Shown here piece by piece: positions 5,910-20,881 of a DNA stretch of 48,581 bases. A program made the position numbers and the translations under genes. The DNA lies in assembly GCA_020720085.1 (NCBI GenBank), contig DYPE01000003.1, forward strand, positions 15,520 to 64,100, read 5' to 3'. The notes beneath the pieces are model-generated. The model did not search any database. It saw nothing but the letters and a program-made list of their open reading frames with translations, and was not told the DNA's origin. Source of the DNA: Dichelobacter nodosus (GTDB lineage Bacteria > Pseudomonadota > Gammaproteobacteria > Beggiatoales > Beggiatoaceae). Every line of letters starts with the position of its first letter. Within the stretch, counting starts at the first letter, position 1.

Positions 5910-7343
5910 TTATTGCATAATAAAAATACATGCTTGCATCAGCCAACTGGGGAATAGCCCTAGCAATAATATTGTAATTGCATTAATGCTAATTGCTGTA
6001 TTAAAGTCCTGACTGGTATTGATTTCTATATTGCGTCCCGGCTTATCAAAATACATTAACTTAATTACACGCAAATAATAAAATGCGCCAATAACAGAAA
6101 AAATAACAGCATATACCGCCAACCATATATATCCTGCCTGTACCACTTGCAACAAAACAGACCATTTAGCCCAAAATCCTAATAAAGGAGGAACACCGGC
6201 CATTGATAACATAACAATGAGCATAATAAACGCCTGCCAAGAATTTTTCTCGTTTAATCCCTTATAGTCTTCTAATTGATCTGCCTCAAAATTTGCCTGA
6301 CTGAGCAATAAGATTATACCAAAACTACCCAACCCCATTAACACATAAGAAGAAATGTAGAATAATGATGCGGAATAGCCAGATACATTTCCTGTTAAAA
6401 CACCCAATAACAAAAATCCAACATGAGATATTGCTGAATAGGCGAGCATCCTTTTTATATTAGTCTGTGCAATTGCAACAGTATTGCCAAAACCAATTGA
6501 TAAAACTGCTAAAAAAATTAGCATTTCACTCCAGTCAGCCTGCATTGGTTGCAATCCATCCACCAATAAACGCATCATCATTGCAAACGCAGCAAGTTTA
6601 GGCGCTGTACTAATAAATAAGCCGATGGGCGTTACAGAACCCTGATAAACATCAGGAACCCAAGCGTGGAATGGTACGGCACCAAGCTTAAATGCAATGC
6701 CTGTAACAATGAAAACCATTCCAACAACAACAAGAGTTTTATCGCCTTGCAATTCACTCGTTACTTTATGGATGACTTCTAAAGATAGAGAACCTGTAGC
6801 TCCATATATCATTGACATTCCATATAGCAATAATCCTGATGCCAAAGCACCAAGTACAAAATATTTCATAGCTGCTTCGGAAGCTTGGCCTGATTTCCTT
6901 TGGAAAGCGACTAAACCATATAAAGAGAGCGATAATAATTCTAATCCTAAATATATAGTAATAAAATGCATCGCGGAAGTCATTATTAACATTCCCGCAA
7001 CAGAAGTTAATATCAAAAAGAAATATTCTCCTTTTAATAAACCTCTATGATAAAGATAATCCTTTGAGTATAACAAGACCACTGCGGACACTAGACAAAT
7101 CATTACTTTTAAAAAAGCACTTAACTTATCGCTCACAACAGTTGAATGTAGGGCTAATACAGAATCAGCCGTCATGGTAGCATAGGCTAATGATGCAGAA
7201 ATCAAGAGGGATATTTGAGAAATATGATACAAAATATTACTTTGACTTTTATCATTCATAAATGCACTAGCTAGAAGTATCGCGCAGCTTGCACTTAATA
7301 TAAAGATTTCTGGCAATATATAATACAACTGGTCTATATTCAT
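5910..7343 (-). CDS. nuoN: NADH-quinone oxidoreductase subunit N
   Basis: NuoN is one of the three antiporter-like proton-pumping subunits in the membrane arm of complex I. The 477-residue protein is almost entirely hydrophobic, with about 13-14 predicted helices. It carries the family core GIAFKLGAVPFHAWVPDVYQ (functional Lys and His in the middle helix), NIKRMLAYSAISHVGFLLLG and MAGVPPLLGFWAKW. It lies 12 bases downstream of nuoM. Base composition is very AT-rich (about 33% GC in a sampled line). Confidence 0.96.
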   Translation of the reverse strand: MNIDQLYYILPEIFILSASCAILLASAFMNDKSQSNILYHISQISLLISASLAYATMTADSVLALHSTVVSDKLSAFLKVMICLVSAVVLLYSKDYLYHRGLLKGEYFFLILTSVAGMLIMTSAMHFITIYLGLELLSLSLYGLVAFQRKSGQASEAAMKYFVLGALASGLLLYGMSMIYGATGSLSLEVIHKVTSELQGDKTLVVVGMVFIVTGIAFKLGAVPFHAWVPDVYQGSVTPIGLFISTAPKLAAFAMMMRLLVDGLQPMQADWSEMLIFLAVLSIGFGNTVAIAQTNIKRMLAYSAISHVGFLLLGVLTGNVSGYSASLFYISSYVLMGLGSFGIILLLSQANFEADQLEDYKGLNEKNSWQAFIMLIVMLSMAGVPPLLGFWAKWSVLLQVVQAGYIWLAVYAVIFSVIGAFYYLRVIKLMYFDKPGRNIEINTSQDFNTAISINAITILLLGLFPSWLMQACIFIMQ

Positions 7344-7355
7344 AAAGATAGAAAA

Positions 7356-8870
7356 CTATAATTTTGACTGCGTGACGTGGACCAACAATTGTTCAATAGT
7401 CGGATGCATTATTTCCAATAGTGGATTTGGGTAAATTCCAAAAAATAAGATAACGATAGCTAAGGTTCCTAAAATTAGTTGTTCTCTTAATGTAATATCA
7501 GATAACTTGGCTACATTTTCATTTGCTACTACACCAAACATTACCCGTTTTATCATCCATAAAGTGTAAGCGGCTCCAAGAATTAAAGTAGTAGCCGCAA
7601 TAAAAGCCACCCAGAAATTAGCTTGCATACTAGCTAAAATCACCAGGAATTCACCGACAAATCCAGATGTACCTGGCAAGCCAGCATTTGCCATAGCAAA
7701 TATTACCAAAAATAAAGTAAACTTTGGCATCATATTAGCGACACCACCATAATCTGCAATTTGTCTACTATGCATGCGGTCATATAATACACCTACACAT
7801 AAAAACAATGCGCCAGAAATAAATCCATGGGAAACCATTTGTACTATACCGCCCTCTATAGCCATAATGGCACCATTGGGTAAACCAGTATTATCCACAA
7901 TTTGAAATATCACAAAAAAACCCAATGTGACAAATCCCATATGCGCAATTGAAGAATAGGCGATTAGTTTTTTCATGTCCTGCTGCATGAGCGCAATTAG
8001 ACTAATATAAACAACAGCTATCAATGAAATACCTATAATAAACCAATCCAATTCCTTACTTGCATCCGGTGTAATAGGTAGAGAGAATCTTAAAAACCCA
8101 TAAGTTCCCATCTTTAACATAATTGCAGCTAGGATCACAGAGCCTCCCGTAGGAGCTTCAACATGAGCATCAGGCAACCAGGTATGTACTGGCCACATAG
8201 GTACCTTTACTGCAAAAGCCACAAAAAATGCGATAAAGATTAAAATTTGTTCAGTAAATCCTAAAGCTTGCTGATGAAAAGAAAGAATAGAAAAGCTCCC
8301 TGTTTTCGAAAAAAGATATAACAATGCAATTAACATTAATACAGAGCCAAAAAAAGTATATAGAAAAAATTTAACTGTTGCGTATATTCTATTATACCCG
8401 CCCCATATACCAATAATTAAAAACATAGGTATTAACATTGCTTCCCATAACACATAAAATAGAATGGCGTCTAATGCTGCAAATACACCATTCATGAGAC
8501 CAGTCATAATAAGAAATGCAGACATATAATGAGAAACCTTATATTGAATTACATTCCAGGCCGAAATAATCACTAAAATTGTAACAAAGCTAGTTAATAT
8601 AATCATAGGCATAGAAATACCATCCACACCTAATGCATATTGAATCTGAAATACAGGAATCCATTCTATACTCTCAACAAACTGCATGGATGGACTATGA
8701 ATATCAAAACCAATATATAAAAAAAATGACAATACAAATGTAAGTATAGAAAAAACAAGAGCAACAGGACGAATTGCTGCTTCAGAATTTCGGCCAAGTA
8801 ATAGCAGCCAAATACCCCCAATAATAGGAACCCAAATAAGGAGACTCAGCAAAGGAAAATTTGACAACAT
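7356..8870 (-). CDS. nuoM: NADH-quinone oxidoreductase subunit M
   Basis: NuoM is an antiporter-like membrane subunit of complex I that carries one proton channel. The 504-residue product has multiple helices, the early YALGVDGISMPMIILTSF segment, the conserved Glu in YVLWEAMLIPMFLIIG, VKVPMWPVHTWLPDAHVEAP, and DMKKLIAYSSIAHMGFVTLG. The stop of nuoL lies ten bases upstream of the ATG. The length matches the usual family size of about 490-510. Confidence 0.96.
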   Translation of the reverse strand: MLSNFPLLSLLIWVPIIGGIWLLLLGRNSEAAIRPVALVFSILTFVLSFFLYIGFDIHSPSMQFVESIEWIPVFQIQYALGVDGISMPMIILTSFVTILVIISAWNVIQYKVSHYMSAFLIMTGLMNGVFAALDAILFYVLWEAMLIPMFLIIGIWGGYNRIYATVKFFLYTFFGSVLMLIALLYLFSKTGSFSILSFHQQALGFTEQILIFIAFFVAFAVKVPMWPVHTWLPDAHVEAPTGGSVILAAIMLKMGTYGFLRFSLPITPDASKELDWFIIGISLIAVVYISLIALMQQDMKKLIAYSSIAHMGFVTLGFFVIFQIVDNTGLPNGAIMAIEGGIVQMVSHGFISGALFLCVGVLYDRMHSRQIADYGGVANMMPKFTLFLVIFAMANAGLPGTSGFVGEFLVILASMQANFWVAFIAATTLILGAAYTLWMIKRVMFGVVANENVAKLSDITLREQLILGTLAIVILFFGIYPNPLLEIMHPTIEQLLVHVTQSKL

Positions 8871-8879
8871 GTCACTACC

Positions 8880-10877
8880 TTATTGAAAAAAAATGAACCA
8901 ACTTAACATTATTGCTAATCCAATACTCATAATAAACGCATAGTGATACAGAAAACCTGTTTGCAATAGACGAAGAAAATTAGAAAGTCTATTTATTAAA
9001 TACGCAGTTCCATTTACCATCATACCATCAATTACATTAGTATCTATAGATTTCCAGAAAAAAATGCCAATTCGCCTAGTAAATAAAGCAATAATTTTTT
9101 CATTAATAAAATCAAAGTAATATTTATTATCTAAAACAACCCGAAAAATATAGAATTTTTCCCCAATAAATTTGTTTAAATCTAAGGAGTTACTACCATA
9201 TAAAATCCACGCAGTAATTACACCAAGTAACGATAAAATGACTGGCAAGGATGGAGGAAACATTCCATGAATAAGAAAATCTAACCATATTTTACCTTCA
9301 CTATGTAAGACATCATGAAATGGATCCTGAACCATATAAATTGCTCCATCAAAAAGACCAGTTAATATAGAACCGACCATAATGGCTCCAATAAATATAG
9401 ATGGAATTGCCAAAATTATTAATGGAATAGTAATGACACGTGAATTTTCATGTAAATGATGAAGTGTATGCTCATCCATTCTTGGCTTGCCATGAAATAC
9501 CATAAAATACATACGAAAAGAATATAAGGCGGTAATGAATATACCAATAAGTAAACAATAATAAGCGAATTCTGCTCCAATACGGTGATTAAGATGTGCG
9601 AAATGCAGCGCCTCAATAATACTATCTTTAGAATAAAACCCCGCTGTTCCAGGGAATCCTATTAAAGCTAAAGAACCGATTAGAGCAGTTATCCACGTAA
9701 TCGGCATATATTTACGAAGACCACCCATTACCCTCATATCTTGTTGATGATGCATTGCCATAATAACAGAACCAGCAGATAAAAAGAGTAAAGCTTTAAA
9801 AAAAGCATGCGTCATAAGGTGAAATATTGCAGCATTATAAGCTGACGCTCCTAATGCAGCTGTCATATAACCTAATTGCGACAATGTTGAATATGCAACT
9901 ACACGTTTAATGTCTGTTTGCACTAAGCCAAGGAACCCCATAAATAAAGCAGTTAATGCACCAATAATCAATATAAAACTTAATGCAACAGGACTTAATT
10001 CATACAAAGGAGACATTCTTGCAACCATAAAAATTCCTGCAGTAACCATAGTTGCCGCATGAATAAGCGCAGAAATAGGAGTAGGACCTTCCATGGAGTC
10101 AGGTAACCAAACATGGAGAGGCATTTGCGCTGATTTACCCATTGCACCGATAAATAGCAAAATGGCTATAACAGTTATAACATGCCACTCTTGACTGGGC
10201 CAAATACTAATATTGATATTTGAAAATTGATTTAATTTTTCAAATACTTCTGAATAATTTAATGTGCCAAAGTACCCAAGAATCAGGGCAATACCAAGCA
10301 AAAAGCCAAAATCACCTACGCGATTAACTAAAAAAGCTTTAAAATTTGCAAAAACAGCCGTTGAACGTTGAAACCAAAAGCCAATTAATAAATATGAAAC
10401 CAACCCTACAGCTTCCCACGCAAAAAATAGTTGAAGAAAATTATTAGACATTACCAGTAGTAACATTGAAAATGTAAATAAGGAAATATATGCAAAGAAG
10501 CGCTGGTAGCTATATATCCCTCCGCAACCAATCTCACTCCAATTATGTTCATCATCTTGCATATATCCAATAGTATAAATATGAACCATCCAAGAAACAG
10601 TTGTTACAATCAGCATCATAGTTGCTGTTAGTGTATCAACTAAAAAGCCAATCTGAAAATTAACACCACCACTAATAGCCCAAGTATAAACAGTAATATT
10701 TATAGGGGCAATATTTTGAATAACATAAAGATAAAAAATAAAAATAGAACATAAAAACGAAATAAAAACTCCAATATTTGCCACCCAATGAGCAATTTTT
10801 CGATTTACCGGAAATAAACCAACAATAAAAGCTCCTAGTAATGGAGATAAGGCTGCTATAAGGAAAATTGATTTCAT
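8880..10877 (-). CDS. nuoL: NADH-quinone oxidoreductase subunit L
   Basis: NuoL is the distal antiporter-like subunit of the complex I membrane arm. Its C-terminal lateral helix runs along the arm. At 665 residues it fits the family. Markers include FFAWEAVGLVSYLLIGFWF, KSAQMPLHVWLPDSMEGPTP, DIKRVVAYSTLSQLGYM and GFPGTAGFYSKDSI. A long C-terminal extension with further helices follows residue 550 or so. AGAGG lies 12 bases before the ATG. The nuoK stop lies seven bases upstream. Confidence 0.96.
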   Translation of the reverse strand: MKSIFLIAALSPLLGAFIVGLFPVNRKIAHWVANIGVFISFLCSIFIFYLYVIQNIAPINITVYTWAISGGVNFQIGFLVDTLTATMMLIVTTVSWMVHIYTIGYMQDDEHNWSEIGCGGIYSYQRFFAYISLFTFSMLLLVMSNNFLQLFFAWEAVGLVSYLLIGFWFQRSTAVFANFKAFLVNRVGDFGFLLGIALILGYFGTLNYSEVFEKLNQFSNINISIWPSQEWHVITVIAILLFIGAMGKSAQMPLHVWLPDSMEGPTPISALIHAATMVTAGIFMVARMSPLYELSPVALSFILIIGALTALFMGFLGLVQTDIKRVVAYSTLSQLGYMTAALGASAYNAAIFHLMTHAFFKALLFLSAGSVIMAMHHQQDMRVMGGLRKYMPITWITALIGSLALIGFPGTAGFYSKDSIIEALHFAHLNHRIGAEFAYYCLLIGIFITALYSFRMYFMVFHGKPRMDEHTLHHLHENSRVITIPLIILAIPSIFIGAIMVGSILTGLFDGAIYMVQDPFHDVLHSEGKIWLDFLIHGMFPPSLPVILSLLGVITAWILYGSNSLDLNKFIGEKFYIFRVVLDNKYYFDFINEKIIALFTRRIGIFFWKSIDTNVIDGMMVNGTAYLINRLSNFLRLLQTGFLYHYAFIMSIGLAIMLSWFIFFQ

Positions 10878-10884
10878 TCTTAAT

Positions 10885-11190
10885 TTAGCCTCTCATACTA
10901 TCTAACTTATTAACATCAATAGTTTGTTTATTACGAAATAATGCAACTAAAATTGCCAGTCCTATAGCAGCCTCTGCCGCTGCCACAGTTAAAATAAAAA
11001 AGACAAATATTTGGCCTGATATCTCATTATAGTATTTTGAAAAAACAATAAAATTAGTATTGATAGATAATAGTAATAATTCAATACACATCAACAAGAT
11101 GATTAGATTACTCCTGTTTAAAAATATTCCAGTTATAGCAATTACAAACAAAATAGAACTAACATATAAAACTTCTGCAGGAGTTGGCAT
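10885..11190 (-). CDS. nuoK: NADH-quinone oxidoreductase subunit K
   Basis: NuoK (MrpC-like) is a small membrane subunit of complex I with three helices. The 101-residue length is exactly that of the family. Two buried glutamates are present, in the segments [13 protein letters not shown] and [18 protein letters not shown]. These residues are known to matter for coupling. It sits between nuoJ and nuoL, as is usual. Confidence 0.96.
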
Positions 11191-11217
11191 GATTACTCTC
11201 GAATAACTAAAATTAAA

Positions 11218-11793
11218 TTACTCTGAATTTATTTTAAAAAGTTTAAGCCTATCTAATTTATGAACACTAACTTGTAACTCAGGCTTACAACTTTTATTTA
11301 ACTTGCGTTCACGCAATGTCAATAACATTGCAACTACCATTGCCACCAATAATATTATGGCTGCGATTTGTACCGGATATGCGAAATTAAGATATAAAGA
11401 ATTGCCTAATTCTTCTATATTAGACTGTACAACTAGATTTCCACTATGAAAAATCTGTTCTTTAAAATTGTTAAATATTACCGAAAATAGTCCAATAATT
11501 ATAATTCCCGTGACAAAAATACCATAAAAATAATATTTACCACTTTTATCTTGATTAAAATTAATATCTAACATCATAATAACAAATAAAAACAAAACCA
11601 TTACTGCACCAACATAAACTAATATCAACGTAATTCCTAAAAACTCAGCACTTAATAAAACCCATATAGCTGACGCTGAAATAAATGCCAAAATTAAATA
11701 TAGAGCAGCGTATACTGTGTTTTTCATGAAAATTACACAACAAGCTGAAAATAACATAATTACAGAGAATAAATAAAAAATGATACTTGCCAT
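11218..11793 (-). CDS. nuoJ: NADH-quinone oxidoreductase subunit J
   Basis: NuoJ is a complex I membrane subunit with five helices that forms part of the quinone-to-pump connection. The 191-residue product shows ALYLILAFISASAIWVLL, GITLILVYVGAVMVLFLFVI and a late hydrophobic helix (AAIILLVAMVVAMLLTL), followed by a basic tail. The upstream neighbour is not nuoI, as expected, but a 194-residue MORN-repeat protein, 75 bases away. Confidence 0.95.
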   Translation of the reverse strand: MASIIFYLFSVIMLFSACCVIFMKNTVYAALYLILAFISASAIWVLLSAEFLGITLILVYVGAVMVLFLFVIMMLDINFNQDKSGKYYFYGIFVTGIIIIGLFSVIFNNFKEQIFHSGNLVVQSNIEELGNSLYLNFAYPVQIAAIILLVAMVVAMLLTLRERKLNKSCKPELQVSVHKLDRLKLFKINSE

Positions 11794-11868
11794 AATGGTT
11801 CCTACATGTGATTTTGTAATTATATTAAAATTTTTATGTAATTAAAAAATATAATCACCAAAATATTA

Positions 11869-12453
11869 CTATTTTAATTCTCTTTTAATCATTTTGTCAT
11901 TTTCATAATAACGAATAGCCTTCAACTGCCCAAAACCATCATACTCTTTTGTTTTTCCATGAATTTTCCCCCCTTTAAATTCATGTTCTAAATACAGATC
12001 ACCTGTCATGTGATAAATTTTGGCAGATATAGGATCGCCATTTTCAAACTCCCAATCTCCCTGTATTTTGCCATTTTCATAAAAACCTTTAGCATTCCCA
12101 TTTTTTTTGCCATTTTTATATTCACGCTGAGCTTTTATTTTTCCACTAGGGTAGTATTCTTTCTCTAAACCATCCTGAACACCATTTACCAATTTTCTTT
12201 CCCGAAATAAATCTCCCGATGGATGATAACTAAATTCAATTTCTATTTTTCTTCCTTGATCCATAAACATTTCATACTCAACTTTCCCATCAATTCGATA
12301 TTTTTTTTCATTAATTAACATATTTTGAACATTATATGTAGACTCTATTTTTTTTTCACCTCCAGGATATTTCTCTAGCCTTACTTCATTCGCGGCAATA
12401 TTTTGCACGATAAAAATACAATATCCAAGCAGGAAAAATTTTATATAGTTCAC
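11869..12453 (-). CDS. Exported MORN-repeat protein inserted in the nuo operon
   Basis: A protein of 194 residues that I cannot assign to a function. It has an N-terminal signal peptide (MNYIKFFLLGYCIFIVQNIA, with cleavage plausible near Ala-Asn-Glu). At least four MORN_2-type repeats of the pattern G-x-x-K-x-Y-Y-x-N/S-G-K-I follow, for example LEKEYYPSGKIKAQREY, NAKGFYENGKIQGDWEF and KTKEYDGFGQLKAIRYY. The start is GTG at 12453, with AAGGA nine bases upstream. It lies between nuoI and nuoJ in the same orientation, with looser spacing (75 and 71 bases) than the other nuo junctions. Its AT-rich composition matches its nuo neighbours. MORN_2 proteins are found in exported proteins and some toxin-antitoxin-like sets. 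A role in complex I is not established. Confidence 0.8.
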   Translation of the reverse strand: MNYIKFFLLGYCIFIVQNIAANEVRLEKYPGGEKKIESTYNVQNMLINEKKYRIDGKVEYEMFMDQGRKIEIEFSYHPSGDLFRERKLVNGVQDGLEKEYYPSGKIKAQREYKNGKKNGNAKGFYENGKIQGDWEFENGDPISAKIYHMTGDLYLEHEFKGGKIHGKTKEYDGFGQLKAIRYYENDKMIKRELK

Positions 12454-12524
12454 TTAAAGTATCCTTCATCTAAATTTGGATTATATTAAAGACTTATAGG
12501 CTACCAACACCAATCAAACAATTT

Positions 12525-12980
12525 TTAACCAATTCTAGCCCCAAACGCAAGTAACTCTTCCTTTTTCATTAATAAATCGCCACGCTCATTGCCGTAATAC
12601 TCAAAAAAATGGGTTTCTATGATTGCATCTACGGGGCAGACTTCTTCACAAAAACCACAAAATATACATTTAGTTAAATCAATATCATAACGTGTAGTTC
12701 TACGGCTGCCGTCCTCACGAACCGCAACATCTATCGTAATAGCGAGGGCTGGGCATGTAACTTCACATAATTTACATGCAATACACCGTTCTTCTCCATT
12801 TTCATATCTCATCAACGCATGTCTACCCCTGAATCTAGGAGATATAGGAGTTTTTTCTTCTGGATACTGTATGGTTGTCTTATTTTTAAATAAATAATAT
12901 CCTGTTAATTTTAGGCCTTTTAATAACTCTAACAGAATAAATGTATTAAATATATTTCCACTAGTTATAAAAGAATTCAT
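12525..12980 (-). CDS. nuoI: NADH-quinone oxidoreductase subunit I
   Basis: NuoI (TYKY) is the peripheral-arm subunit carrying two [4Fe-4S] clusters, N6a and N6b. Both ferredoxin motifs are intact: [12 protein letters not shown] and [13 protein letters not shown] chose the ATG at 12980 (MNSFITSG..., 151 residues). It matches the usual family N-terminus and has AAGG about ten bases upstream. An in-frame ATG 18 codons earlier would run into nuoH. The gene starts 19 bases after the nuoH stop. Confidence 0.95.
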
Positions 12981-12999
12981 TAGGCTAACCTTAAAAATG

Positions 13000-14025
13000 C
13001 TAAATACCAGAAGAAAACCAGGGAGGCATGTCAATTACCACAAAAATACTGATAATAGCTAACCATAAAATGGTTATCGGAATAAATACCTTCCACCCTA
13101 GCCGCATAATTTGATCATACCTATATCGAGGAAAAGTTGCCCTCAACCATAAATAAATAAAAAGGAATAATGATATTTTCAATAAAAACCATCCAATAGA
13201 TGGTAATACAAGCACATCCTGCAAAAAAGTACCCTGGAACGGAGATAACCATCCACCAAGAAACAATATTGCAGTTAACGTTGAAACCAGTATCATATTT
13301 GCATACTCGGCGAGAAAAAAGATTGCAAACAGCATTCCAGAGTACTCAACATGAAATCCCGCAACAATTTCAGATTCGCCTTCTACAACATCAAATGGTG
13401 CTCTATTGGTTTCAGCAACACCAGAAATAAAATAAATAACAAATAAAGGAAATAAAGGCAACCAAAACCAATTAAGTATTCCTAATTCCCCTGACTGTGC
13501 TTTTACAATATCAGATAAATTCAGGCTACCCACAGCAATTAATACGCCGATTAAGGCAAAACCCATTGCTATTTCATAAGCCACTACTTGTGCTGCAGAA
13601 CGCATTGCTCCTAACAAAGCATATTTAGAGTTAGAGGCCCAACCTGCAATAATAATTCCATATACACCTAGTGACGTCATTGCAAGCAGGTATAATAAAC
13701 CAACATTAATGTCTGAAATGACAAAATTTTCCGAAAATGGAATAACCGCCCATGCTGCTAACGCTGGGGTTATTGTTAATATTGGCGCTATAATAAATAA
13801 AAATTTATTAGAGTTTGATGGCAATACAATTTCTTTAAACATGAGTTTAACAGCATCTGCAATCGGTTGCAGTAAACCTCTTAGCCCAACTCGGTTAGGT
13901 CCAATACGAATTTGAATATAACCAATAATTTTACGTTCTGCATAAGTTAGGTAAGCCACTGCTGTCAATAACGGAATTGTCACGACCAAAATTTTCAGTA
14001 AATTTATTATAAATGCCAAATCCAT
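13000..14025 (-). CDS. nuoH: NADH-quinone oxidoreductase subunit H
   Basis: NuoH (ND1) is the membrane subunit that forms most of the quinone-binding chamber at the foot of the peripheral arm. The 341-residue product has about eight helices and carries [40 protein letters not shown] (acidic loop) and a terminal [25 protein letters not shown] precedes the ATG. The length is typical. Confidence 0.96.
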
Positions 14026-14098
14026 TGTTAACCCTCTGCATTACAAGTCATCTCGTTAATACATTTAAATTTAATAGGTTTCTTATATCAATAAAAAA

Positions 14099-16249
14099 TC
14101 AGGATATAGTCCGCAATTGTAATGGATGAGAACGACGAACTATAGGGTCTATAAAATATGGAGATGCCTTGTCCATTTTATAAGACTCTAATGAAAAATT
14201 GACAGATGATATATCAATAAATTTACCTATCCATTTGTTAGATATTTTGTTAGAAGTACAATGCTGGCGAAGGTCATCTAAAATATCGGCTGTATTTTGA
14301 TACGTAAAGTCATTATTGTTTAATAAAATACCTAAATCATGTAATACTTTCCATCCTGATTTAGCTAAACCAGGAGGAGATATAGCGGCACAAAAGGATT
14401 GCCAACTTCCTTCGCTATTAATGTAAGTTCCTTCTATTTCTCCAGGTAAACCAATTGGTAATAAAATATCTGCTCTATCTAATAAGAATTGAGTCTTATA
14501 CCCAGTAAAAGATAATACAAAATTTGAATTTTTAGTAATTTCTGTAAGGTATGCACCATTTTTACAATCTAAATCAGACTCTATATTTAATAAAACCAAT
14601 CCATCAATTTTTTCTTCACTCATTTGATATATATTCTTCCCTTTTTTTTCTCTTAGGCATCCTCCGACACCGCGCTCAGGATGAACTCCGGCCAGATATG
14701 CACCTTGACTATTCGGTCCATCACCAGCAAACATAATGGAACCATTAGTCATCATAGAAATAATAGATACTAAGGCTCTCACAAGTGAAAAATATGGAGA
14801 ATGACTAAAAATGTTCCCAACTATTATGGCAAAATTTTTAGCTTGTAGCATTTTTTCAATAATTGGAATATGCTTATCTTGTATGTCGTGACAACCAATC
14901 ATACTTAATAACTCTTCAGGAAGTTGTATCGATTTTTCTGCCGCAAGACCTTTAGTTATAGCCACAAGGCTATAAACTAATTTTTCTTCATCTTCAATTA
15001 ATTTGTGACTTACAGGATAATTAAATAAAAAATCAGATGGATTCAGAATAATTACTGACGATTTTTTATAACTTACTGATTTTCTAATTCTATAATTCAA
15101 TAAGGGTATATCATTACGGAGGTTTCCTCCTAGAATGAGTATGGTATCTGCATTTTCTAAATCATTAAGCGTAATTTCAAATGAACTCGTTACTGATTCC
15201 TCTGGATTAAGGTACAGATCGACTTGGTGCAATCTATGGTCTAAATTGGAACAATTTAGTGTTGCAGCTATTTTCTGGAATAAATATAATTCTTCAACTG
15301 TAGCCTGAGGCGAGGCAAGAAAGCCTATTTTATCTGGAGAAACACTTGTAATATATTGGAATGCTTTAGTCAGCGCAGTTTTCCAATCGACTTCTTTCCA
15401 TAATCCACCTTCTTTGATCAACGGAGAGGTAAGACGATCTTCTGCTACCAAACCTAAATAGCTAAAGCGATCTCTATCGGATAACCAAGATTCATTAATA
15501 TCATTATTTTTTCTGGGGACAACACGTACAATTTTATTGTTATGGACATGATAGTATAAATTAGAACCAAGAGAATCATGTGCTGAAATTCCAGGAACTT
15601 GCTGTAACTCCCAGGTTCTAAGCGAAAAACGGCTAGGTTTGGCTGTGAGAGCACCCACAGGACAAATATCAATCATATTACCAGACAACTCTGAGTCAAT
15701 TGTTTTTGAAATATATGTACCAACTAAAGTATGCTGACCTCGCCCTATTGCTCCTATTTCTTGTATTCCTGCAACTTCAATACTAAATCTAACACAGCGT
15801 AGGCAATGTATGCAACGCGCCATATCAGTAGAAATCAATGGCCCTATATCTTGATCCGCAACAGCGCGCTTGCTTTCAGTGTAACGAGATGAATTATTGG
15901 CATATTTGAGTGCAATATCTTGCAACTCACATTCACCCGCTTGATCGCATATTGGACAATCCAATGGATGATTAATGAGTAAAAACTCCATTACTGCCTT
16001 TTGTGCGGCAATAACCTTTGCTGATTTCGTCCAAACTTTCATCCCATCCGTAACAGGGGTAGCACAAGCGGGCATCAGTTTGGGTGCTTTTTCCACTTCA
16101 ACTAAACACATCCGGCAATTAGCTGCAACGGATAATTTCTCATGATAACAAAATCGTGGAATATCAATACCTAACGAATCCGTGGCTGCTATAAGCATTT
16201 GGCCAGCAGCTACTTCATATAATTTTCCATCGATTTCTATAGTTGCCAT
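14099..16249 (-). CDS. nuoG: NADH-quinone oxidoreductase subunit G
   Basis: NuoG is the largest peripheral-arm subunit. At 716 residues it is of the shorter, mitochondrial-like type rather than the E. coli type of about 900. The N-terminal ferredoxin domain carries a [2Fe-2S] motif (CYHEKLSVAANCRMC then PAC). The His-Cys motif HPLDCPICDQAGECELQD follows, and then the [4Fe-4S] ligands in CIHCLRCVRF and MIDICPVGAL. The C-terminal two thirds (about 215-716) is a molybdopterin-oxidoreductase-like fold without visible cofactor residues, as is normal here. The extra N7 cluster Cys set of the long type was not seen. Confidence 0.95.
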   Translation of the reverse strand: MATIEIDGKLYEVAAGQMLIAATDSLGIDIPRFCYHEKLSVAANCRMCLVEVEKAPKLMPACATPVTDGMKVWTKSAKVIAAQKAVMEFLLINHPLDCPICDQAGECELQDIALKYANNSSRYTESKRAVADQDIGPLISTDMARCIHCLRCVRFSIEVAGIQEIGAIGRGQHTLVGTYISKTIDSELSGNMIDICPVGALTAKPSRFSLRTWELQQVPGISAHDSLGSNLYYHVHNNKIVRVVPRKNNDINESWLSDRDRFSYLGLVAEDRLTSPLIKEGGLWKEVDWKTALTKAFQYITSVSPDKIGFLASPQATVEELYLFQKIAATLNCSNLDHRLHQVDLYLNPEESVTSSFEITLNDLENADTILILGGNLRNDIPLLNYRIRKSVSYKKSSVIILNPSDFLFNYPVSHKLIEDEEKLVYSLVAITKGLAAEKSIQLPEELLSMIGCHDIQDKHIPIIEKMLQAKNFAIIVGNIFSHSPYFSLVRALVSIISMMTNGSIMFAGDGPNSQGAYLAGVHPERGVGGCLREKKGKNIYQMSEEKIDGLVLLNIESDLDCKNGAYLTEITKNSNFVLSFTGYKTQFLLDRADILLPIGLPGEIEGTYINSEGSWQSFCAAISPPGLAKSGWKVLHDLGILLNNNDFTYQNTADILDDLRQHCTSNKISNKWIGKFIDISSVNFSLESYKMDKASPYFIDPIVRRSHPLQLRTIS

Positions 16250-16277
16250 ATATTTAACCAGTTACACTAAATTTTAT

Positions 16278-17543
16278 TTAAACCATACATTTTTTATTAT
16301 TAATATGATATTCAAATTCTGCTTTATAATGTTTAATAAAGCTAATAACTGGCATTGCAGCGGCATCACCCAAAGCGCAAATAGTGTTGCCGCTAATATT
16401 AGTAGCTATATTATTTAGTAATTCTATATCTTTTGTTGTACCTTGACCATGCTCAATGCGATGAATTGTTTTGGATAACCACCCGGTTCCTTCCCGGCAG
16501 GGCGTGCATTGACCACAGGATTCCTCATAATAAAAGTGAGAAATTCGATCTAGTATCTTTACCATACAGGTGGTTTCATCCATCACAATCACAGAACCAG
16601 CACCTAACATTGATCCAGCTGAAGCGATAGACTCGTAGTCCATATTTAATTCCATCATAATATCGCCAGGCAACACCGGTGTTGAACTGCCGCCGGGAAT
16701 AACAGCTTTTAGCTTATTTCCATTGCGTACTCCACCAGCCATTTTAAGTAAATCTGCGAATGAAGTTCCCATTGGGATTTCGTAATTTCCTGGATTGTTT
16801 ACATGGCCTGATACAGAAAAAATTTTAGTGCCCCCACTCTTGTCCCTTCCCATTTCCATAAACCATTTACCTCCATTCTTTAATATTACAGGAATAGAGG
16901 CTAGAGTTTCTGTATTGTTAATTGTAGTTGGTTTTCCATAAAGGCCGATATTGGCGGGAAATGGTGGTTTGTATCGGGGTTGACCTTTTTTTCCTTCTAT
17001 CGACTCAATAAGTGCAGTTTCTTCACCGCAAATATAAGCACCTGCGCCAAGATGAGTATACAAATCAAAATGAATATCAGAGCTAAAAATATTTTTTCCT
17101 AAATAACCAGCCTGATATGCTTCAGTGAGGGCATTTTCAAATCGTTCATATGGCTCCCAGAATTCGCCACGAATGTAGTTATAACCTATTGTTGCACCAA
17201 TGATATACCCTGCTATTAACATACCCTCAATTACCTGGTGTGGATTAAAGCGTAAAATATCTCTGTCCTTACATGTACCAGGCTCGCCCTCATCTGAATT
17301 ACAAATAATATATTTTTGAATTTCTCTGTCCCTAGGCATGAAACTCCATTTTAAACCCGTAGGGAACCCAGCTCCACCTCTGCCACGTAATCCAGAAAGT
17401 TTTAATTCAGCAATAATCGTTTCAGGAGATATTTTTTCATTAATGATTTTTTGAATAACTGAATAGCCACCAGATTGCTCATAACTAGATAATTTCCACT
17501 GATCGCCTTTATGAATATTACGAAAACATACTTCGTTAGCCAT
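16278..17543 (-). CDS. nuoF: NADH-quinone oxidoreductase subunit F (NADH/FMN site)
   Basis: NuoF binds NADH and FMN and starts electron flow in complex I. The 421-residue protein has the nucleotide motif [17 protein letters not shown], the FMN loop [19 protein letters not shown], and the N3 [4Fe-4S] ligands in [15 protein letters not shown] with the distal Cys in [10 protein letters not shown]. The ATG lies eight bases after the nuoE stop. The Shine-Dalgarno GGAG lies inside the last nuoE codons, so the pair is coupled. Confidence 0.96.
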
Positions 17544-17551
17544 GAGCTTAA

Positions 17552-18067
17552 CTACTCCATATTTTCCAGTATTTGATCAATTTTTTCAGCCGTTAAGTTC
17601 TCATGATATGTATTCCCGATTTGAATAACCGGGGCATTCGCACAAGCACCAAGACATTCAACTTCCTTGAGCGAAAACATTTTATCTGTTGTTACTTGTC
17701 CAAATGAGATACCTAATTTATTTTTTAAATGCTCTACAATATTCTCACTACCACATAATAAACAGGAAACATTAGTACATACACATATTTTATGTTTACC
17801 TACGGGTTTCAATTCATACATTGAATAAAATGTAGCAACTTCATATGCCGCAATTCTTGGCATATTCAGATAGTCTGCAACGGCTTCAATAAGTTCGTTA
17901 GTGAGCCAACCACCATTTTGTTCCTGCACAATTCGCAATGCAGCCATGATGGCGGATTGGCTCTGGTCAGCAGGATATTTTAATATCCATCGGTCAATTT
18001 CGCGAAGGGATGCCTCAGAGATAATGTTTTGTTTATCCTTGGCCCGAATCAATTCATTGATAGCCAT
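17552..18067 (-). CDS. nuoE: NADH-quinone oxidoreductase subunit E
   Basis: NuoE is the 24-kDa-type subunit of the NADH dehydrogenase module. It holds the [2Fe-2S] cluster N1a in a thioredoxin-like fold. The 171-residue sequence has all four Cys ligands, in [10 protein letters not shown] (first and second, family pattern C-x4-C) and [11 protein letters not shown] (third and fourth). Its ATG shares one base with the nuoD stop (TGATG), which indicates tight coupling. Confidence 0.95.
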
Positions 18068-19326
18068 CAGCGATCAATCTCCCCAAATACAATATCTTGC
18101 GAACCAATTATAGCAACCACATCCGCCAACATGTGACCAGAGGCCATTTCATCAATGGATGCTAAATGAGGAAAGCCTGGCGCACGAATTTTCATACGGA
18201 ATGGTTTATTAGCACCATCTGAAATGAGGTAAATACCAAATTCTCCTTTGGGATGTTCTACTGCCGCATAGGCCTCACCCTCAGGTACACAATATCCTTC
18301 GCTGGTTAACTTAAAATGATGAATTAAACTTTCCATGTTGGCTTTAATTTGTTCACGATTTGGCGGGGTGTATTTAGAGTCTTCCACCATGACTGAACCA
18401 GGATTTTTTCGTAACCAATGCACGCATTGTTGCATAATGAGATTGCTTTGGCGCATTTCCTCAATGCGTACTAAATATCTATCATAACAATCGCCATTAA
18501 CACCAATAGGAATTTTGAAGTCAAGCGCAGGATAAACTTCATAGGGCTGCTTTCTGCGTAAATCCCATACAATACCAGATCCGCGCAACATCGGGCCGCT
18601 AAAGCCAAGTTGCTTGGCGCGTTCAGGACTCACAATTCCAATATTAACAGTTCGTTGCTTCCAAATTCTATTGTCAGTTAATAGTGTTTCATATTCATCA
18701 ATATAACCAGGAAATCTTTGCGTAAAATCTTCTATAAAGTCTAATAGCGTTCCTTCACGATTAGCATTTTTTTTCTTAAAGTCATTGGACTTATGCCACC
18801 TTGTGTCTTTTTCTTCATATTTTGGCATTGTTTCTGGCAAATCGCCCGATACGCCGCCCACTCGATAGTACGCCGCATGAAGTCGCGCTCCCGATACAGC
18901 CTCGTAACAATCCATTAAGTCTTCACGTTCACGAAAAGCGTATAAAAACATGGACATAGCTCCAACATCAAGAGCATGTGCACCTATCCACATGAGATGG
19001 TTCAAAATACGGGTAATTTCGTCAAACAGTACCCGGATATATTGGGCGCGCTCAGGAGGGGTAATTTGTAATAATTTTTCAACAGCCAGGACATACGCAT
19101 GTTCATTACACATCATGGAAACGTAATCAAGACGATCCATGTAAGGCAAATTCTGATTAAATGGTTTTGTTTCCGCTAATTTTTCAGTGGCCCTGTGCAA
19201 TAGCCCTATGTGCGGGTCTGCACGCACTATGACCTCTCCATCCATTTCTAAAATGAGCCGCAAAACGCCATGTGCAGCCGGATGTTGAGGCCCAAAATTT
19301 ACGGTATAATTACGAATTTCTGCCAT
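18067..19326 (-). CDS. nuoD: NADH-quinone oxidoreductase subunit D
   Basis: NuoD (49-kDa homologue) lines the quinone site with NuoB and derives from NiFe-hydrogenase large subunits. The 419-residue protein begins with [21 protein letters not shown] and includes [21 protein letters not shown]-like [18 protein letters not shown], and a C-terminus ending DIVFGEIDR, all typical. It is separate from nuoC, unlike the fused nuoCD of enterobacteria. Its composition is less AT-rich than that of the distal nuo genes. Confidence 0.96.
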
Positions 19327-19360
19327 GAGTATTTAAATTTTTTATAAATCAATATGATTG

Positions 19361-20008
19361 TTAGCGTATAACGCGGGGCACTAGAGTGCGTGTTTCAATG
19401 CTAACCGGCTCGTAAATGATGCGCCCCTGAATAGGATCATAACGCATTTCTACCGTGCCTGACAAAGGAAAATCTTTACGAAATGGGTACCCAATAAAGC
19501 CGTAGTCAGTAAGTATTCGGCGTAAATCTGGGTGTCCTTCAAATAAAATACCATATAAGTCGTATGCTTCCCTTTCGTACCAATTTGCGCTACTCCATAA
19601 ATCAATGACGGTTTTCACACAAGGCACTTCACCTTTAGCAAAAACACGTACTCTTATCCGTAAATTATGTTCCAACGATAACAGATGATACACCACAGCA
19701 AATCGATGCGGAAACTCTTTAGGGTTTACTGTCTGCGGACTCATTTTGTTTACTGCTCGGCTAAATCCCGTGGCAGAAGCCTGAGTATTCCACTCTGTCA
19801 GGCCATATTGCAGATAGTCTACACCACAGATATCCATTAATTGCTCAAATCCAAACTCGTCGCGCAGTGCGTGCAATACAGATAAAGATTCCTCGGCTAG
19901 AGTCTCTATGGTAATTTCACCAAACTCCAACACGCTTTGCCGGATTTGCCCAGAAAACCGGCTTTGAACCCGGTTGAATAATTGGTTTGTAGCTTCGATT
20001 CGACTCAT
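19361..20008 (-). CDS. nuoC: NADH-quinone oxidoreductase subunit C
   Basis: NuoC (30-kDa homologue) is a structural subunit of the complex I connecting module. At 215 residues it has the family signature [26 protein letters not shown], in pieces [11 protein letters not shown] and [16 protein letters not shown], followed by [10 protein letters not shown]. The N-terminal half is variable, as usual. It starts eight bases after the nuoB stop. Confidence 0.95.
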
Positions 20009-20016
20009 GTGTGAAA

Positions 20017-20493
20017 TTATCTAGCAATCGTGTTTGTGCGTTTGATTTTTTTTTGTAGCTGCAGAATACCGTAAATTAATGCTTCTGGAGTAGGTGGGCA
20101 ACCTGGAACGTAAATATCCACAGGAACAATCCGATCACAACCGCGCACTACGGAATACGCATAATGGTAATACCCGCCGCCATTGGCACAAGACCCCATT
20201 GAAATTACCCAGCGCGGTTCAGCCATTTGATCATACACTTTACGCAAGGCCGGGGCCATTTTATTAGTCAGTGTTCCTGCGATAATCATCACATCAGACT
20301 GGCGTGGGCTAGGGCGGAATACCATACCAAACCGGTCTAAGTCGTAGCGGGCAGCACCTGCCTGCATCATTTCCACTGCGCAACAAGCTAAACCAAAGGT
20401 CATTGGCCACATTGAACCACTCCGCGCCCAATTCACCAAGGAGTCTACCGTAGTGGTAACAAACCCTTCTTTAAATACGCCCTCTATTCCCAT
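20017..20493 (-). CDS. nuoB: NADH-quinone oxidoreductase subunit B
   Basis: NuoB (PSST homologue) carries the terminal [4Fe-4S] cluster N2, which reduces quinone. The 158-residue product starts [20 protein letters not shown]. It has the adjacent ligand cysteines in [11 protein letters not shown] plus the Cys in [12 protein letters not shown] and in [13 protein letters not shown] use the ATG at 20493, which overlaps the last ten bases of nuoA. A longer in-frame start seven codons upstream is less like the family. Confidence 0.96.
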
Positions 20494-20840
20494 TCTAGCG
20501 CCCCTTTTTTCCATTCATAAACAAAACCAATCAGTAGGATACCTAAAAATATTGCCATTACACTGAGTCCATACCAACCAAGATCGTCTAACACCACAGC
20601 CCAAGGAAATAAAAATACAATTTCCAGATCAAAAACAATAAATAAAATGGCTACTAGATAGAACCGCACGTCAAATTTCATTCGTGCGTCTTCAAAGGGC
20701 TCAAAACCGCATTCGTAGGGAGTATTTTTCTCGGCGTAAGGACGGCGAGGACCAAACACAAACCCTGCACCTGCCGCGCCTATACCTACGGCTAGGCCTA
20801 CAGCGATAAAAAGTAAAATCGGAACATATTCGTCTAGCAT
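20484..20840 (-). CDS. nuoA: NADH-quinone oxidoreductase subunit A
   Basis: NuoA (ND3) is a small membrane subunit with three helices and a loop reaching the quinone site. The 118-residue product has the family markers [24 protein letters not shown] (in parts YECGFEP and FDVRFYL) and [13 protein letters not shown]. The ATG at 20840 ([10 protein letters not shown]) is preferred over a TTG six codons upstream because GGAG lies nine bases before it. It is the first gene of the nuo operon, about 40 bases behind a strong promoter. Confidence 0.95.
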
Positions 20841-20881
20841 AGTTAAACACTCCGTCAACCCCGTTCTAAACAGGTGTTGCC

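Follow-up and report, generated by a model that had tools for sequence, protein, structure and literature searches.

An ancient fifteenth cistron of the Beggiatoaceae nuo operon encodes a predicted periplasmic MORN-repeat protein

The nuo operon of the Beggiatoaceae, a family of sulfur bacteria, contains an ancient, family-specific fifteenth cistron, a gene for an exported protein of MORN_2 repeats that lies at the junction of nuoI and nuoJ. We give about an even chance to the reading that its product works in the periplasm as an accessory or assembly factor of complex I, one that is confined to this lineage and not essential. How the protein folds, that it is exported and that it is anchored at the inner membrane are predictions; that it touches complex I, and what it does there, is only what we infer from the findings set out below.

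The gene was found in the window, the whole stretch of 48,581 nucleotides that was analysed, where the minus strand carries all 14 nuo genes, nuoA to nuoN, in their canonical order (Table 1). The original prediction of a signal-peptide MORN_2 protein between nuoI and nuoJ, in the orientation of the canonical genes and flanked by gaps of 71 and 75 bases, was borne out. The open reading frame is real, encodes 194 aa and has the sequence AGGAT 7–8 nt upstream of its GTG start, and the spacers measure exactly 71 bp (nuoI–MORN, 12454–12524) and 75 bp (MORN–nuoJ, 11794–11868). The same prediction had remarked on an AT-rich composition. With a GC content of 0.31 the gene does resemble nuoI–K (0.27–0.35) in a genome of 0.52 (137 kb sampled), but this is a trait of the whole operon and is not peculiar to the MORN gene. 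A scan for promoters was uninformative (17 promoter-like sites against 11.6 ± 3.5 expected), and a scan for terminators found none.

Table 1. Coordinates of the MORN gene, its parts and its operon in the window
Feature	Position	Strand	Remark
Exported MORN_2-repeat protein, 194 aa	11869..12453	-	starts with GTG at 12453; orthologues throughout the family at the nuoI/nuoJ junction
Predicted Sec signal peptide, residues 1–21, cleavage near ...NIAA/NEV, without lipobox	12391..12453	-	helix 3–17 in the model
MORN_2 repeat region, 15 strands, one continuous single-layer beta-sheet	11869..12390	-	domain match and model
nuoI, neighbour upstream, assigned start 12986	12525..12986	-	
nuoJ, downstream neighbour	11218..11793	-	
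Complete nuoA–nuoN operon with the extra MORN gene inside	5910..20858	-	

Several further features of the operon were observed. The stretch from nuoA to nuoN forms an AT-rich island with a GC content of about 0.27–0.48 against about 0.52 for the genome, and GC3 drops along it from 0.44 (nuoB) to 0.21 (nuoJ/K). Among the nuo-operon genes of relatives, nuoI and the MORN gene have some of the lowest GC3 values, and two relatives have a nuo GC content below that of the flanks. The window's NuoG (14099–16249) is 716 aa long, against 774–806 aa in relatives, and is 45–49% identical to theirs, compared with 77–88% for nuoB and nuoD.

Conservation of the gene within the family is close to complete. 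When relatives were searched for similar sequences, all 36 other family members gave a match and the 21 other families sampled gave none; a presence profile built from 18 orthologues was positive in 41 of 43 family genomes and in 25 of 25 genera, 25 also being the count of genera that GTDB assigns to the Beggiatoaceae (PMC11172852). The two non-matching genomes (G062 and G063) are incomplete assemblies from which the nuoH match is missing too. One of the 41 matches, in G005 (E=5e-11), is a cytosolic YwqK-like paralogue distant from nuo. A tblastn search with the window's Nuo proteins served to check gene order and strand, and the order nuoI–MORN–nuoJ on one strand was found in each of the 30 relatives whose fetched stretch holds the gene and both flanks. 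One flank is visible in a further seven, among them G022, where the contig edge falls inside the MORN gene. Two genomes (G018 and G034) have the MORN gene beside nuoI with nuoJ not found just downstream, and linkage to nuoJ is thus not absolute. The search beside nuoI and nuoJ in related genomes that had been proposed as a check returned an orthologue at the same junction and on the same strand; neither of the outcomes named as refuting, a lack of the gene in every relative's nuo operon or a random location, was found.

The spacers on either side of the gene range from 14 to more than 2,500 bp and are looser than most nuo junctions, so a separate promoter is possible. Other nuo junctions in the relatives carry sporadic unrelated inserts, none of them family-wide, and some operons are split. 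No recurrent partner gene was found beside the MORN gene in the relatives' nuo operons. Two genomes (G008 and G002) hold a similar protein of 156–160 aa between the MORN gene and nuoJ, resembling by eye a cyclic-nucleotide-binding domain, at sites in the MORN–nuoJ gap of L043 (9122–9693) and in a gap of 688 bp in L054. In genera g17 and g18 (L086, L093, L096 and L060) the nuo operons are heavily invaded at several junctions by unrelated genes, which by eye are TnpB-like, DNA-methylase-like, amidase-like and multihaem-cytochrome-like. Homologues of bPAC (Beggiatoa photoactivated cyclase) occur at 49–64% identity in nine of the 43 family genomes.

Outside the family the arrangement was not encountered. 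All 27 nuoI–nuoJ junctions measured in other families of the class lack a MORN gene, and their gaps of 10–148 bp hold no gene. The profile gave six matches at E<=1e-10 among 369 class genomes, four of them family members and two others, and no nuo genes lie near these two matches from the 365 non-family class genomes. In a sample of 398 phylum genomes the window itself was the only match at E<=1e-12, and a single-protein search of genome contigs reached only distant MORN_2 repeats, none near nuo. A literature search found no paper joining "MORN repeat" and "nuo operon".

The age of the insertion follows from the position of the one genome that lacks it. A FastTree tree of NuoH, NuoI, NuoJ and NuoK recovers the family as one clade. 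The complete genome G005 carries its nuo genes on two contigs, with a nuoI–nuoJ gap of 21 bp and no orthologue of the MORN gene, and groups in this tree with G013, G031, G008 and G015 at a support of 1.00. As judged from the tree, its lack of the gene is a secondary loss because it is nested inside the family, and the insertion at nuoI/nuoJ dates to the family ancestor. The same nested position rules out the alternative that G005 branched off at the base and had never possessed the gene. The original prediction of a later insertion was right in that the gene is an insertion relative to other families, but it erred on the date, which is not late.

The MORN gene of G012 is cut short and is followed by a two-gene insertion in a MORN–nuoJ gap of 998 bp (L052), which suggests that the insertion disrupted it; one of the two inserted proteins is PIN-like by eye. 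This copy is truncated and the window copy is shorter than most orthologues by about 1.5 N-terminal repeats, so decay of the gene may be under way in the part of the family that holds the window, G012 and G005. The loss in G005 and the truncation in G012 also mark the gene as non-essential.

In most of the pairs compared, purifying selection acts on the gene about as strongly as on the nuo genes. Its dN/dS is 0.03–0.16 in eight pairs, each of congeners or close relatives, and that of nuoH–K in the same pairs is 0.02–0.29. Two very close pairs gave 0.31 and 0.48 for the MORN gene, with the nuo genes mostly raised there too, and one further pair was unscored. MORN distances correlate best with those of NuoJ (r=0.68, with a nuo–nuo range of 0.50–0.80), and the main clades of the NuoHIJK tree reappear in the tree of the MORN gene. 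Genetic linkage and co-inheritance with the complex I genes were thus found for the MORN gene, with G005 as the exception. Presence wherever complex I occurs in the lineage, as expected of an obligate subunit though not of an optional one, was not found, and the protein is not filed as a proven or obligate subunit because G005 keeps its nuo genes without an orthologue.

The window protein belongs to the MORN_2 family (PF07661), which it matches at E=5e-14 and 51.1 bits against a Pfam gathering cutoff of 29.6; three stretches pass individually, and the repeats are predicted to form a single-layer antiparallel beta-sheet. Its AlphaFold2 model (pLDDT 95.2) presents 15 consecutive strands in a continuous single-layer MORN sheet. 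Foldseek matches this model to structures of MORN1 (PDB 6t4d, 6t68, 6t69) and OspA (2fkj, 6kk9) at a TM of about 0.45–0.59, and searching solved structures by sequence yielded nothing beyond weak MORN matches to SET7/9. Conservation is strongest in the middle and C-terminal-half repeats, with the pattern NG..QGDW.F.NG.P..A.I followed by GE..L.H.

Both ends of the protein bear on its location. The N-terminus of the window protein and of its orthologues is a Sec-type signal peptide that has no lipobox, and no surface-anchor motif was found in the MORN orthologues. Two orthologues (G011 and G030) end in a C-terminal membrane helix (mean hydropathy 3.1) followed by basic residues, and many others finish with a tail that is basic and rich in Trp, for example RRRIGSWSRWWWELWY. 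The window protein and its nearest relatives have short KR-rich tails without Trp, and the window protein has no membrane helix. A signal peptide without lipobox, a membrane helix in two orthologues and Trp-rich basic tails together suggest, from sequence, a periplasmic MORN protein at the inner membrane.

These features can be combined into a mechanism. The MORN protein would be made together with NuoI and NuoJ, exported by Sec and kept on the periplasmic side of the inner membrane, where its single-layer sheet would dock on membrane-arm loops that face the periplasm (NuoJ/K/A/H/N region). Once docked, it could aid the assembly or stability of complex I, in the role of accessory subunit or of assembly factor; this help would not be strictly needed, as one lineage lost the gene. 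The more specific proposal of a stably bound, family-specific periplasmic accessory subunit whose MORN sheet clamps the membrane arm on its outer face is tentative, and we regard it as rather unlikely.

A possible reading, to which we give less weight than to a complex I helper, is that the protein has an envelope job of its own as a periplasmic or cell-surface scaffold or adhesin-like factor, gaining only steady expression from the operon and never touching complex I. MORN_2 proteins elsewhere are unlinked to nuo, adhesion has been suggested for fusobacterial MORN proteins (PMC11005410), the gaps around the gene are loose, and G005 lost it without losing nuo. Furthermore, MORN repeats are generic interaction modules, which counts against the complex I reading. 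An envelope job of this kind sits poorly with one junction held family-wide while other inserts come and go, with the inner-membrane helix of two orthologues and the Trp-rich tails, and with the lack of lipobox or surface-anchor motif. A complex I helper is favoured over an envelope protein that shares the operon.

Slow turnover alone, in which an ancestral insertion with a weak function unrelated to respiration was kept since operons of this family rarely rearrange, is improbable. The shortened gene of the window genome, the truncated one of G012 and the loss in related G005 speak for it, but dN/dS is mostly 0.03–0.16, other junctions of the same operons accept insertions and some of these operons are split. 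MORN_2 proteins are frequently labelled as YwqK-type antitoxins of toxin–antitoxin pairs, and the repeat family is the same, with cytosolic YwqK-like paralogues in the family (for example in G005); the signal peptide of the orthologues and the absence of a recurrent adjoining partner gene largely refute this assignment, which we hold to be very improbable. Finally, the suggestion of a simple passenger fails on a gene kept under purifying selection in nearly all of 25 genera, and its strictest form, a recent insertion in this genome only, for which the 71 and 75 bp gaps speak in being wider than most nuo junctions of the window, is refuted by the same-site orthologue across the whole family, that is, by family-wide synteny.

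Few respiratory enzymes are as well studied as complex I, and its bacterial form is treated as a 14-subunit core with few known accessory proteins. To our knowledge, no bacterial complex I has a dedicated periplasmic accessory subunit. An extra gene that recurs throughout a family at a fixed operon site points to a factor, so far undescribed, that acts on the periplasmic face of the enzyme. It offers a directly testable candidate in culturable Beggiatoa, with G005 as a natural knockout lineage for comparison.

Comparison with known systems places the protein among familiar components in an unfamiliar setting. It shares the repeat sequence and single-layer beta-sheet fold of the MORN_2 (PF07661), YwqK-like proteins; unlike the YwqK antitoxins of other contexts it is exported, membrane-anchored in some orthologues and fixed in the nuo operon. 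The single-layer sheets of eukaryotic MORN1 and of OspA have the same elongated architecture as the model, at a sequence identity of 9–16% that is not meaningful and with unrelated roles. The accessory subunits of Paracoccus and Mycobacterium complex I sit on the cytoplasmic, hydrophilic arm, and chloroplast NDH carries the lumenal subcomplex L on the positive side of its membrane arm. The Paracoccus subunits NDUFS4, NDUFS6, NDUFA12 and PIMT (PMC11522691) and the Mycobacterium subunit A9 (PMC12361115) are likewise lineage-restricted extras to the 14 core subunits. These have been shown to bind, whereas the MORN protein, predicted to be periplasmic and unrelated to them in sequence, is a candidate only; none of the known bacterial accessory subunits is a MORN protein, in agreement with the original remark that its author knew of no complex I accessory subunit of this type. 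The mitochondrial subunits NDUFA8 and NDUFS5 lie on the outer face of complex I (PMC11522691). Neither they nor NDH subcomplex L are bacterial or homologous to the MORN protein, but both are extras that sit on the membrane arm's positive side, which is where the MORN protein is proposed to lie.
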